Below, in pieces: positions 42,788 through 47,052 of a DNA stretch of 64,000 nucleotides. Below the pieces are notes generated by a model. The model did not search any database and was not told the DNA's origin. It saw only the letters and a list, made by a program, of their open reading frames with translations. The stretch comes from Haloprofundus salilacus. GTDB taxonomy: Archaea > Halobacteriota > Halobacteria > Halobacteriales > Haloferacaceae. Within the stretch, counting starts at the first letter, position 1; each line of letters opens with the position of its first letter. Both the position numbers and the translations under genes were made by a program. The DNA is taken from the NCBI RefSeq assembly GCF_020150815.1, contig NZ_CP083723.1:2852001-2916000 (forward strand), given 5' to 3'.

Positions 42788-44299
42788 GTGCGCATCTCCA
42801 CAGCCCTCCGCACCGGATTCCGACTCCCAGATCGCCATCCGGTCGCCGTCCTCCCATTTTACCTCCTCGCGACGAGCGTCGGCGTCATCGCTCGCGTCCC
42901 GATGTTCGTCGGTATCGCCGTCGCAGTCGCCGCCCTCTCCTCGAACGGACGACTCGACGCGTTTGTCGACAGCGTCCAGCAGGTCGACTTCGCCGCTGTC
43001 GACCCCGCTGAACCGACGACTGCGACCGGACTGGCGGACGCGCTCGCGGTGCTCGTGACGCCGGTGACGGCCGCGGTGCTCGCAGTGTCGGTGTTGGTGG
43101 CGGTCGTTCTCGGTCTGTTGGCGACCGGCGTCGTCCGGGCCGGAACGCTCTCGGCGGTGCTGGCCGCAATAGACGGGGGCGACCCGACCGTCGGCGGGAT
43201 CGGCGGCGCGAGGCGGTTCTGGCGCTCGTTCGTCGGCTTTCTGCTCCTGCGAACCGCGCTGTTCGGCGGCTTGTTTCTCGTGACGGCGCTGGTCGCACTC
43301 GCGCTGTCGTTGCTCGGCGTCGCGGGAATCGTGCTGGGGGTTCTCGTCGCGCTGGTCGGGGTGGTGCTCGCGCTCGTCGTGGGGTTGCTGTTGGCGTTCA
43401 CCGAGCAGTCGCTCGTCGTCGACGGCGAGGGACTGGTCGACGCGCTCCGTGCGAGCGTTCGGTTTCCGTTCCGGCGGCCCGTCGACTTCCTGTTCTACGT
43501 GCTCGTCGCGGGCGCAGCGTTCGTCGGCAACGGCATCGTCATCGGGACGGCCGGGGCACTCGGAGTCACGCAGGCCGGGACGCTGCTCTCGATTCTTCTC
43601 ATTTCGCCGGTTCTCGACGGTTTCAAGACCTCGCTGTACGCCGAGCGCGGACTCTCCGAGCGCGAGAGCGGGTACGGAATCGAGGGCGAGCCGACCCCGC
43701 GACGACGCCGCCTTGTCTCGGGGACGCGCGACGGCGTGGGCGCGCTCGGCCGATTCGTCGTCGAACATCCGGGCTGGAATCTCGTCTCGACGTTCGTGCT
43801 GGCCGGGAGCGTCCTCGCGGGTTACGTCGCGACGTCCGGGTACGGGATTCGAATCGGCGCCCCGGGCGACGTGGCGGGCGTCTTCGGCGTCTTCCCCGTC
43901 GACACGTTCGTCAACATTGCGGCGAACAACTGGCTCGTCGCCGCCGGCAGTGCCTACGGCGGCCTCGCGCTCGGGGTTCCGGCGGCAGTCAGTCTCGCGT
44001 TCAACGGGCTTCTCGTCGGTGCGCTCGCCGGAATATTCGAATTGACGCCGTTTCTGGCGCTCGTCGCACCGCACGGCGTCATCGAACTGCCGGGGTTGAT
44101 CGTCGCGGGCGCGCTCGGACTGCATCTCGGTCGCGTCGGGTGGAGTGCGTACCGCGGGCGACGCGACGCGGCGTCGCTCGCCGGAGAGCTGCGGCGCGCG
44201 TTCCGGATACTCGTCGGACTGGCCGTCGTCTTCGTCGTGGCGTCGTTCATCGAGGCGTTTCTCACGCCCCGAATCGCCGCCGCCGTCCTCGGCGGGTGA
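42788..44299 (+). CDS. Multi-pass membrane protein with C-terminal SpoIIM/DUF95-type domain
   Basis: A 503-residue membrane protein with two parts. The first 290 residues have six to seven hydrophobic helices resembling the DUF7544/glycerophosphodiester-type membrane domains of archaea. The last 200 carry the stage II sporulation protein M (DUF95) pattern: NIAANNWLVAAGSAYGGLALGVP, FNGLLVGALAG and the hallmark APHGVIELPGLIVAGALGLHLG. Such domains are thought to organise membrane transport or remodelling; no function is proven in archaea. The start is GTG at 42788. It stands alone. Confidence 0.75.
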   Translation: MRISTALRTGFRLPDRHPVAVLPFYLLATSVGVIARVPMFVGIAVAVAALSSNGRLDAFVDSVQQVDFAAVDPAEPTTATGLADALAVLVTPVTAAVLAVSVLVAVVLGLLATGVVRAGTLSAVLAAIDGGDPTVGGIGGARRFWRSFVGFLLLRTALFGGLFLVTALVALALSLLGVAGIVLGVLVALVGVVLALVVGLLLAFTEQSLVVDGEGLVDALRASVRFPFRRPVDFLFYVLVAGAAFVGNGIVIGTAGALGVTQAGTLLSILLISPVLDGFKTSLYAERGLSERESGYGIEGEPTPRRRRLVSGTRDGVGALGRFVVEHPGWNLVSTFVLAGSVLAGYVATSGYGIRIGAPGDVAGVFGVFPVDTFVNIAANNWLVAAGSAYGGLALGVPAAVSLAFNGLLVGALAGIFELTPFLALVAPHGVIELPGLIVAGALGLHLGRVGWSAYRGRRDAASLAGELRRAFRILVGLAVVFVVASFIEAFLTPRIAAAVLGG

Positions 44300-44415: not shown

Positions 44416-44558
44416 CCTACTGTGTTAAGCGGACGAGTTTAGTGGATAGCGCTACGTTCTTGAGACGCGAACCGCGGACGCGCCGGACACAAACACAGTT
44501 CGCGTGCCAACGAACTTAGCCAAACCATGCAGTCCCGGTGTGCTGCGTTCGACGAGGC
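44416..44558 (+). repeat. Tandem element copy 1 (putative small-RNA gene)
   Basis: Box A CCTA at 44416, preceded by CGAAA; TTTAGTGG at 44438-44445; 40-nt core 44492-44531 with the stem AGTTCG (44497-44502), 8-nt loop, CGAACT (44511-44516); then GCGTTCGACGAGGC at 44545-44558. Core identity with copies 2 and 3 is 39 of 40 positions. The box order fits promoter, transcript start, structured RNA on the plus strand. Confidence 0.6.
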
Positions 44559-44670
44559 TTCGGTCTCAAACCATCTTCGGAATCCGATGCGACCAGCGAT
44601 GCGTCTCGACGGTGCCCGGCGTAGAGTCTCGCACGTAGCTGTCACTCTTGTTCGGCAGGCAGTACGGCGA

Positions 44671-44813
44671 CCTAATATATCTGGTACCGATACTTAGTGG
44701 ACGAAGCGCCAACTACAGTACGCGAACACGGACGCACCGGACCCGAACACAGTTCGCGTGCCAACGAACTTAGCCAAGCCATGCACTCCGGACGCGCCGT
44801 GTTTAGCGAGGAG
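44671..44813 (+). repeat. Tandem element copy 2 (putative small-RNA gene)
   Basis: Box A CCTAATATAT at 44671-44680 is the best TATA box of the three; CTTAGTGG at 44693-44700; core 44746-44785 with stem 44751-44756 / 44765-44770. Spacing from box A to the TTAGTGG box is 22 nt, as in the other copies. A minus-strand 68-codon frame with TTG start (44900-44694) covers this copy and reads HGLAKFVGTRTVFGSG through the core; it is the main alternative explanation. Confidence 0.6.
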
Positions 44814-44902
44814 TACCCCTCGTTCTTCCCAATCTCCGAAACCTGACGCGAGGAGCGACGCGTCTCGGTCGCGACGATCGGGCCATCGTTCGAAACCCAA
44901 TG

Positions 44903-45044
44903 CCTAACATATTAGGTGATGTCGTTTAGTGGGTGGGGTTGTAAGTAGTAACTGCGAACCGCGGAACACCGGACCCAAACACAGTTCGCGTGCCAACGAA
45001 CTTAGCCAAGCCATGCAGTCCCGGTGCGCCGCGTTCGACGAGGC
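44903..45044 (+). repeat. Tandem element copy 3 (putative small-RNA gene)
   Basis: Box A CCTAACATATTAGG (44903-44916, itself an inverted repeat) follows CGAAACC; TTTAGTGG at 44925-44932; core 44978-45017 with stem 44983-44988 / 44997-45002; GCGTTCGACGAGGC at 45031-45044 as in copy 1. The distances between boxes are the same as in copies 1 and 2 to within one base. Confidence 0.6.
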
Positions 45045-45073
45045 CAAGTCCTCGTATCCCCCCCATCCTTCAC

Positions 45074-45125
45074 TGACTACCCGGCGAGCGCATCCGCTCG
45101 TCGGCGGTAGTCACATTCGAAAAAA
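45074..45125 (-). terminator. Terminator of the rhodanese gene (T6 run and long hairpin)
   Basis: In the direction of the minus-strand rhodanese gene a run of six T (45125-45120) is followed by an inverted repeat whose outer arms GACTACC/GGTAGTC and inner arms CGAGCG/CGCTCG enclose CATC (45074-45111). It probably ends that transcript and may also stop plus-strand transcripts from copy 3. Confidence 0.5.
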
Positions 45126-45164: not shown

Positions 45165-46028
45165 TCAGTCGTCGTTGCTGCCGGTTTCGACGGGTGCGCC
45201 GACGAGGTTGCCCCACTCGGTCCACGAGCCGTCGTAGTTGGTGACGTTGTCGTAGCCGAGCAGTTCGTGGAGCGCGAACCACGCGATCGAGGAGCGCTCG
45301 CCGATGCGGCAGTACGCGATGACGTCCTGGTTGTCGTCGACGCCCTCGGACTCGTAGAGTTCGCGGAGTTCGTCGGCGGACTTGAACGTGCCGTCGTCGT
45401 TCACCGTGGCCGCCCACGAGATGTTACGTGCGCCCGGGACGTGACCGCCGCGCTGGGCGGTCTCCTGCAGTCCCGGCGGGGCGAGAATCTCGCCGCTGAA
45501 CTCCTCGGGCGAGCGAACGTCGACGAGCGGCAGACCGCGGTCGATGGCCTTCTCGACGTCGTCGCGGTACGCGCGGATGGACTCGAAGGGGCCGCGAGCG
45601 TCGTACTCCTGCTCGGGGAACTCCGGCGCCTCGTCGGTCGTCGGGTAGTCGTTGTCGACCCAGTAGTCGCGGCCGCCGTTCATCAGGCGCACGTCCTCGT
45701 GGCCGTAGTACTTGAACTGCCAGTAGGTGTACGCCGCGAACCAGTTGGAGTTGTCACCGTAGAGGACGATTGTGGAGTCCTCGCTGATGCCGTGAGAGCC
45801 GAGCAGGTCCTCGAAGTCCTCCTTGGTCAGGATATCGCGGGTCGTCTGGTCCTGTAGTTGCGTCTCCCAGTTGAACCCGATCGCACCGGGGGCGTGACTG
45901 TCGTCGTACGCCTCGGTGTCCACGTCGACTTCCACGAGTCGGTAGTCGGGGTCGTCGCTCTGGAAGTCGTCGAGATGGTCTTCCACCCAGTCCGCCGAAA
46001 CGAGCACGTCTTTTGCGTAATCTGCCAT
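45165..46028 (-). CDS. Sulfurtransferase, two rhodanese domains
   Basis: A 287-residue thiosulfate sulfurtransferase-type protein with tandem rhodanese domains. The N-terminal inactive domain runs from VLVSADWVEDHLDDF to about residue 140. The C-terminal domain has the active-site loop VIAYCRIGERSSIAW, the CRxGxRS form expected for thiosulfate as donor. DVRSPEEFSGE and HVPGARNISW are conserved surroundings. It transfers sulfane sulfur to cyanide or thiols. It starts at ATG 46028 and is divergent from a second rhodanese gene. Confidence 0.9.
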   Translation of the reverse strand: MADYAKDVLVSADWVEDHLDDFQSDDPDYRLVEVDVDTEAYDDSHAPGAIGFNWETQLQDQTTRDILTKEDFEDLLGSHGISEDSTIVLYGDNSNWFAAYTYWQFKYYGHEDVRLMNGGRDYWVDNDYPTTDEAPEFPEQEYDARGPFESIRAYRDDVEKAIDRGLPLVDVRSPEEFSGEILAPPGLQETAQRGGHVPGARNISWAATVNDDGTFKSADELRELYESEGVDDNQDVIAYCRIGERSSIAWFALHELLGYDNVTNYDGSWTEWGNLVGAPVETGSNDD

Positions 46029-46257
46029 CGCAGATGTCTACGTTCTCCGGGAGCATAATCCCTCCACCCCCGGCATGTACGGCCGTTCGAGCGAAGTACC
46101 GGATAATGTTGCATCATCCTGCCCGACGAGCGATTTATTCCAGTGTTGCACGGCTGACGAGTCGGCAAGTGCCGGCAAAATACCCCGGTAGGAAAGACGA
46201 GAGTCAGTCGTGACCGCGACGCCGACAGCTAAATCCCACCCGGCCGTAGCCCGCCCC

Positions 46258-47052
46258 ATGTACGAAAACGCCGTCGTCGCCGCGTCGTGGGTCGCCGACC
46301 GACTGGACGAACTCCGCGTCGTCGACGTGCGCGACGCGTGGGAGTTCGACGGCATCGGTCACGTTCCCGGTGCGGTGAACGTGCCGTTCGACGAGTTTCG
46401 TAGCTCTGCGGGCGACGAAGGGATGTTACCCGGAGAGGAGGTGTGGGCGGAGTTGCTCGAAGCGGCCGGCGTCGACAACGGCGACCACCTCGTTGCCTAC
46501 GACGACACCCACGGCGTCTTCGCCGCTCGGTTCCTCGTGACCGCCGAACTGTACGGACACGACACCGACCGTCTCCACCTGCTCGACGGCGACTACAGCG
46601 CCTGGAGTCGCGAGTACGAGACGACGACGACGGAGACTACGGACCCCGAACCGACGACCTACGAGGTCCGACGACCCGAGCGGACGCCGCTGGTCGATTA
46701 CGAGACCGTCCTCGACAGCCTCGACGACTCGGACGTGGTCGTCGTCGACACGCGGGAGGCGTGGGAGTACGAGGAGGGTCACATTCCCGGTGCAGTGCAA
46801 CTCGACTGGCGGGAGTTCGTCGACGACGAGGCGCGCGGACTGAAACCGGCCGAAGAACTCGAATCGATTCTGACCGACCACGGCGTCGGCGACGACCAGC
46901 AGGTGCTGCTGTACTGCAACACCGCCCGCCGTATCAGTCACACGTACCTCGTGCTCCGGCATCTCAGGTACGAGGACATCGCGTTCTACGAGGGAAGCCT
47001 CACCGAGTGGGAGGAACGCGGCGGACCCATCGAAAGCGAGGATGCGGAGTAA
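46258..47052 (+). CDS. Second two-domain sulfurtransferase with atypical active loop
   Basis: A 264-residue tandem-rhodanese protein (MYENAVVAASWVADRL...). The catalytic loop in the C-terminal domain reads LLYCNTARRISH: the Cys is kept, but the loop CNTARR differs from CRxGxR, so the donor or acceptor may differ from the neighbour's. DVRDAWEFDGIGHVPGAVNVP and DTREAWEYEEGHIPGAVQLDW mark the two halves. ATG 46258 is used; a GTG at 46210 is possible. A TATA-like GATTTATTCC lies near 46130. Confidence 0.87.
   Translation: MYENAVVAASWVADRLDELRVVDVRDAWEFDGIGHVPGAVNVPFDEFRSSAGDEGMLPGEEVWAELLEAAGVDNGDHLVAYDDTHGVFAARFLVTAELYGHDTDRLHLLDGDYSAWSREYETTTTETTDPEPTTYEVRRPERTPLVDYETVLDSLDDSDVVVVDTREAWEYEEGHIPGAVQLDWREFVDDEARGLKPAEELESILTDHGVGDDQQVLLYCNTARRISHTYLVLRHLRYEDIAFYEGSLTEWEERGGPIESEDAE

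Follow-up and report, generated by a model that had tools for sequence, protein, structure and literature searches.

Three tandem units in a 64,000-nucleotide stretch of DNA (the window, G000:C1:2852001-2916000, within a 3.73-Mb genome of the genus Haloprofundus, Haloferacaceae) are most likely three paralogous non-coding RNA genes with products of about 120 nt, and sequence comparison and predicted folds indicate that the array is most likely one branch of a previously uncatalogued haloarchaeal RNA family.

Position and conservation of the Haloprofundus array

Units a (44416-44568), b (44671-44824) and c (44903-45055) have boxes and a 40-nt core in common. As a preliminary description of the window had reported, CCTA lies at 44416, 44671 and 44903 and is followed 22 nt downstream each time by (T/C)TTAGTGG. 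Re-reading the window also recovered the core at 44492, 44746 and 44978, which differs from that of copy b at 1, 0 and 0 positions, and the 6-bp stem AGTTCG/CGAACT with its 8-nt loop CGTGCCAA in all three copies. The repeat unit then proposed holds for the boxes and the core and falls short in size, the unit being ~150 nt and comprising the promoter box, a long closing stem and a second hairpin.

Each of the five Haloprofundus genomes searched has exactly three copies, all at this location, and 15/15 genus copies share the 20-mer CAGTTCGCGTGCCAACGAAC without a difference. Because the four other species each carry three copies at this place and the 20-mer is identical throughout, the array is not a chance occurrence. 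DNA between the units cannot be aligned across the five species, and conservation is confined to the units. Copy classes a, b and c are common to all five species, and the triplication is therefore older than the diversification of Haloprofundus. In the nearest outgroup genus the same flanking genes are only ~50 nt apart, and when the corresponding place in other genera was searched for diverged copies, the gaps proved empty or held unrelated genes; insertion in the Haloprofundus ancestor is thus the probable origin of the array. The upstream SpoIIM gene is the same neighbour across the genus and is also present in other genera without the array. Directly past the array are two divergent rhodanese-domain genes (45165-47052), and a rhodanese gene adjoins SpoIIM in several other Haloferacaceae as well.

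Predicted structure, promoters and coding potential

The units were folded by eye and with RNAfold/RNAalifold into a long closing stem (P1), a hairpin (P2), a single strand (J) and a further hairpin (P3). In classes a and c, P1 pairs AACGCGG.CGCRCCGGAC with GTCCCGGTGCGCCGCGTT, and in class b AACACGG.CGCCCCGGA with TCCGGACGTRCCGTGTT. P2 is AGTTCG[CGTGCCAA]CGAACT, with the loop CGUGCCAA; J is (T)AGCCAAGCCATGCA; and P3 is CGAGGCNNNNGCCTCG, then a pyrimidine-rich tract, in most copies a possible terminator. The array and its neighbours are as follows.

42788..44299, +: upstream neighbour, SpoIIM-domain membrane protein (PF01944)
44416..44445, +: copy a putative promoter, CCTACTGTG (BRE/TATA region) and TTTAGTGG (-10); predicted start ~44449
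44468..44488, +: copy a predicted P1 5' arm, CGAACCGCGGACGCGCCGGAC
44497..44516, +: copy a predicted P2 hairpin, AGTTCG[CGTGCCAA]CGAACT
44517..44531, +: copy a J segment, TAGCCAAACCATGCA, predicted single-stranded
44532..44551, +: copy a predicted P1 3' arm
44552..44568, +: copy a predicted P3 hairpin (P3 is weakest in this copy)
44671..44700, +: copy b putative promoter, CCTAATATAT...CTTAGTGG; predicted start ~44704
44723..44741, +: copy b predicted P1 5' arm, CGAACACGGACGCACCGGA
44751..44770, +: copy b predicted P2 hairpin
44771..44785, +: copy b J segment, TAGCCAAGCCATGCA
44787..44804, +: copy b predicted P1 3' arm, TCCGGACGCGCCGTGTTT
44805..44824, +: copy b predicted P3 hairpin
44903..44932, +: copy c putative promoter, CCTAACATATTAGG...TTTAGTGG; predicted start ~44936
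44955..44974, +: copy c predicted P1 5' arm, CGAACCGCGGAACACCGGAC
44983..45002, +: copy c predicted P2 hairpin
45003..45017, +: copy c J segment
45018..45037, +: copy c predicted P1 3' arm, GTCCCGGTGCGCCGCGTTCG
45038..45055, +: copy c predicted P3 hairpin, then TATCCCCCCCATCC
45165..46028, -: downstream convergent neighbour, rhodanese-domain protein (PF00581)

The RNAalifold energy is lower than in 200/200 column shuffles for alignments A4, A5 and A7 (199/200 for A6), and the mean single-sequence energy is -40.5 versus -31.8 (sd 1.9) in shuffles. Folded one by one, nearly all 15 sequences give P1, P2 and P3; the z-scores of the window copies in such single-sequence folding are weak, from -0.5 to -1.3. 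One P1 pair that is G-C in classes a and c is A-U in 5/5 b copies, with both sides changed, probably in a single event. Standard pairs occupy 92% of the cells of A7 versus 31-40% with slid partners, a difference that is partly built in since A7 is structure-fitted; the covariation score of this structure-fitted alignment is reached by 3/500 shuffles, and the a+c alignment A4 alone gives no covariation signal. The 6-bp stem was the structure pointed to in the preliminary description; P1 is the more important one. The 6-bp stem (P2) never varies within the genus, where it shows no covariation, so that its support there consists of conservation. AGTTCGCGTGCCAACGAAC of P2 is identical in 15/15 genus copies (last base T in 13/15), and CCATGC of J is invariant in 15/15. 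In addition, the pyrimidine tract of each unit is followed by a semi-conserved motif (44594-44612, 44852-44872 and 45080-45105): copies a and b show GCGAYGCGTCTC there, and copy c shows a CGAGCG..CGCTCG hairpin. An origin from a plasmid, phage or virus was considered and rejected: the array has no BLAST match, and core matches in IMG/VR are protein-coding or lack P1.

CCTA and TTTAGTGG are islands of conservation in the five species, with fixed spacing. CCTAA-YNTRT is consistent with BRE/TATA and TTTAGTGG with the -10 element; on the evidence of sequence, both boxes are kept in 15/15 genus copies. The TTAGTGG box had been taken for the 5' end of the RNA; given the BRE, TATA and -10 WW elements reported for haloarchaeal promoters (PMC4983044), the -10 (WW) element is the better reading of it. 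From the same promoter layout (PMC4983044), the RNAs are predicted to start ~11 nt past the first T of TTAGTGG, near 44449, 44704 and 44936. Each unit thus looks to have a promoter of its own, as a haloarchaeal intergenic sRNA does.

Outside the array, each genome has the exact motif CCTAAYNTRTTNGG at a single further conserved site, which lies 54 nt ahead of a DUF7556 gene and which we regard as a lead. Although its exact motif recurs genome-wide at only this one other conserved gene, the CCTAA dyad was rejected as a transcription-factor operator, since its position coincides with BRE/TATA. That gene (L044, L041, L047, L043, L053; G000:C1:901133 and orthologues), which has the CCTAA-type promoter motif in common with the array, is nearly invariant for ~45 nt past its proposed ATG, third codon positions included, and forms a hairpin CGTCGGG..CCCGACG there; the stretch may be an RNA element or reflect a mis-called start. 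The perfect palindromes CCTAACCGRTTAGG at G000:C1:1765713 (L092) and G001:C1:615107 (L084), near-matches of the CCTAA dyad, have a convergent dehydrogenase gene on one side and an HTH-type regulator gene on the other, and each is probably a two-way terminator rather than an operator.

Open frames on both strands, in GC-rich DNA, could be taken to mean that small leaderless proteins start at the GTG within TTAGTGG, or that the minus strand encodes peptides (HGLAKFVGTRTVFGSG). Among the copies, however, the core lies 51 to 57 nt from the TTAGTGG start codon, with all three phases represented, the core reading frame differs between orthologues, and a 1-nt indel after the stem, inside the core, breaks the frame on both strands. 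Since neither strand keeps a frame, a protein on either strand was rejected, and small proteins are scarcely credible as an explanation. The preliminary description had named a minus-strand frame kept while boxes and stem are lost as the outcome that would favour a small protein; the opposite was found, with the minus frame breaking. Its proposal that the plus strand carries three small-RNA genes whose core is under selection gains from the fold that beats 200/200 shuffles, from P1 arms that differ between copy types and yet remain paired, and from the absence of a kept frame. As with haloarchaeal intergenic sRNAs, then, no conserved protein frame is present, and the units are very probably non-coding RNA.

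Known RNA classes do not account for them. Rfam 15 gives no family at gathering score in the window and none of relevance at relaxed E-values. There is no ACA 3' of P1 and no C/D box in the 15 sequences read, nor an Rfam match to an H/ACA or C/D guide RNA. The gene after copy c is convergent and neighbours differ between lineages, which does not suit a riboswitch or mRNA leader. A search of the literature for Haloprofundus RNA-seq found none.

The P2 loop in other haloarchaea

A covariance-model search, suggested in the preliminary description, recognised Haloprofundus and found nothing in other genera (0/165 other Haloferacaceae genomes). Among Halobacteriales, 5/392 genomes were matched, all Haloprofundus, and two weak matches (L154, L155) were unconvincing. 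Because these large scans scored few candidates per genome, the core was also searched as a pattern. With two mismatches allowed, it matched GTTCGCGTGCCAGCAAAC in non-coding DNA of other genera, and a follow-up pattern search of the 392 genomes found the same P2 loop in predicted intergenic RNAs of 14 further haloarchaeal genera. Counting Haloprofundus, the family thus spans at least 15 genera; as the search covered a single stem version of the loop, this number is a lower bound. What defines the proposed GUGCCA-loop family is a hairpin that bears the loop TTCGCGTGCCARCRA and is itself enclosed by a longer P1 stem, and these RNAs show this arrangement. As no single covariance model spans the lineages (R1 and R2 match Haloprofundus only), the link between them rests on loop and architecture. 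Rfam has no relevant match for the loop RNAs of the other lineages either.

P1 in the other lineages is unrelated in sequence to that of Haloprofundus, and the number of loops varies. The group f17 (27 genomes; genera g44, g53 and g77), located between tatC and a LarE-like gene, has P1 = GCGTTCGYGCC/GGTGCGAACGC with two hairpins inside, TAGCT[CGCGTGCCAGC]AGCTA and GCAGTT[CGCGTGCCAGCA]AACTGC. In f7, which comprises nine genera of Natrialbaceae (Haloterrigena, Natronorubrum, Halostagnicola, Halomontanus and Natrononativus are those named), P1 is GGCTCCCG/CGGGAGCC. The RNA of genome G010 (f1 g7) is closed by TAGGCTCC.CGCAAT/ATTGCG.GGAGCCTA, and that of G050 (f1 g27) by TGTTCCGGG/CCCGGAACA, which holds the Haloprofundus loop version GTTCGCGTGCCAACGAA. 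Upstream of the P1 arm, ATAACTAA lies at 31-32 nt in 27/27 f17 loci and TTTT at 29-30 nt in 16/16 f7 loci; such TATA-like boxes at a fixed distance are what a transcript beginning at P1 would predict. T runs follow several of the f7 units.

It might be argued that the Haloprofundus array alone forms a genuine sRNA family and that the likeness elsewhere is coincidence or convergence, since the loops of Haloprofundus and the other lineages are identical at 16/18 positions and the covariance models do not cross-match. Against this, the near match found an element that is itself invariant in the 27 f17 genomes and in several Natrialbaceae genera, and G050 carries the Haloprofundus version of the loop inside a different P1. 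Moreover, a reversed-pattern control gave ~9 matches in 392 genomes, and protein-coding matches of the same 20-mer lack P1 and have folding z near 0. Coincidence or convergence is therefore unlikely. A locus at G056:C98:9850-10650 (L233), where tandem 33-nt repeats (GTCGAGGTGACCGGTTCGCGTGGCGACGAACCC) match the pattern by chance, looks like repetitive coding sequence.

Hairpins with a conserved loop at non-homologous places, partly on plasmids in Natrialbaceae, could also mark a DNA-level element, such as REP/RAYT-like sequences, IS200/605-like ends, or partition or replication sites. Such an element is very improbable, given that each genome has one RNA-like unit (three only in Haloprofundus) at a place constant within each clade, and given the promoter-like boxes at fixed distance and the paired changes in P1. 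A family of RNAs remains the preferred reading.

Neighbourhoods in three lineages adjoin glycan genes (glmM/aglF, glmS and an exopolysaccharide cluster). The order is glmM, RNA and aglF in G050, with a DUF7344 relative ~2.4 kb on, and DUF7344, RNA and glmS in G010. In Natrialbaceae, TFB, DUF7344 regulator and RNA are followed by glycosyltransferase, flippase, beta-helix or polysaccharide deacetylase genes. Neighbours are not glycan genes in Haloprofundus (SpoIIM, rhodanese) or f17 (tatC, LarE-like). These arrangements weakly suggest that the loop RNAs are linked to amino-sugar and surface-glycan synthesis. The DUF7344 regulator gene is immediately upstream of the loop RNA at L220-L225 and L250 (Natrialbaceae) and at L226 (G010); in Natrialbaceae a divergent TFB gene precedes DUF7344 at the edge of a glycan gene cluster, several of these loci being on plasmids.

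Possible partner and comparison with known systems

The loop is constant across lineages while stem, place and loop number change, and a near-constant loop on a replaced stem points to a common regulatory partner. That the loop has the same partner across lineages is likely. In the mechanism we propose, each unit would be transcribed from its own promoter, the closing stem P1 would hold up P2 so that a loop containing GUGCCA is exposed, and P2 would be followed by the unpaired GCCA-rich strand J and the 3' hairpin P3. The RNAs would act in trans, with the loop as the active part and the stems as a replaceable scaffold. Loop and repeats would most likely bind and titrate a conserved RNA-binding protein, as CsrB/RsmZ or GlmY do, the loop being repeated through three genes in Haloprofundus, two hairpins per RNA in f17 and extra single-stranded GCCA motifs. 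GCCA occurs on average 3.0 times per RNA in Haloprofundus versus 0.9 in shuffles and 3.7 versus 1.2 in f17, counts in which one per RNA comes from the search pattern. Trans-acting GUGCCA-loop RNAs titrating a protein have, taken as a whole explanation, about an even chance of being right.

Bacterial antisense-type sRNAs typically come as multiple siblings, and the units might instead be siblings of this kind, whose GUGCCA(A/G)C loop and J are seeds that pair with mRNAs, as in LhrC or Qrr. Such seeds would explain why ultra-conserved unpaired sequences are exposed on a scaffold, and the J complement TGCATGGCTTGGC contains AUG. However, no common site complementary to J (13 nt, at most 1 mismatch) was found in the five genomes apart from the RNAs themselves, and J was rejected as a start-codon seed. 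For 11 genes, either neighbouring or co-motif, the 12-nt loop paired with the gene start no better than shuffles did; neither did the longer core with the DUF7556 leader, which was rejected as a target. These tests are of a kind that short seeds and distant targets would escape. Because J has no conserved complement and loop pairing is no better than chance, a protein partner is favoured over an mRNA. This preference is a weak one: a protein is a tentative choice, and antisense pairing, like the mRNA class and other classes of partner, is doubtful.

A more far-reaching version of protein titration is that a widespread haloarchaeal RNA family sequesters a conserved RNA-binding protein via the GUGCCA loop and governs surface-glycan synthesis, the loop being multiplied within one RNA or through gene triplication; as one joint claim this is improbable. 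The glmS, glmM and exopolysaccharide neighbourhoods nevertheless suggest a measurable phenotype. We know of few archaeal regulatory RNAs conserved beyond a genus and of none in Archaea shown to act via protein titration. The present family is compact and occurs in culturable organisms, with 15 genera, one invariant loop, swappable stems and one to three copies, and the three tandem Haloprofundus genes, with their lineage-stable differences, offer a ready case for archaeal sibling sRNAs.

In the bacterial CsrB/CsrC and RsmX/Y/Z RNAs, a short loop motif is repeated on hairpins, per RNA or across siblings, and the stems are more variable than the loops. The haloarchaeal RNAs resemble them in having one loop motif in several copies, within an RNA or across sibling genes. 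They differ in their archaeal host, in having one or two motif hairpins rather than many, and in a GUGCCA loop without the GGA that, in multiple hairpin loops and with a CsrA/RsmA partner, characterises CsrB/RsmZ. The LhrC-type multicopy sRNAs of Listeria are tandem sibling genes with an unpaired motif in common, as is the Haloprofundus array, for which, in contrast, mRNA pairing was not found in the tests run. The intergenic sRNAs of Haloferax volcanii (e.g. sRNA132) belong to the same size class as the predicted RNAs and likewise have haloarchaeal promoters of their own (PMC4983044, PMC6560208). In Enterobacteriaceae, GlmY/GlmZ with RapZ, for which GlmY serves as a decoy (PMC7073468), are structured sRNA siblings tied to amino-sugar synthesis, much as some loop RNAs adjoin glmS or glmM; the Rfam models do not match, however, and the glycan link is one of neighbourhood, absent in Haloprofundus and f17. 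If sequestration and glycan control were true, the family would be an archaeal counterpart of CsrB/GlmY control, with a different motif and a different protein.
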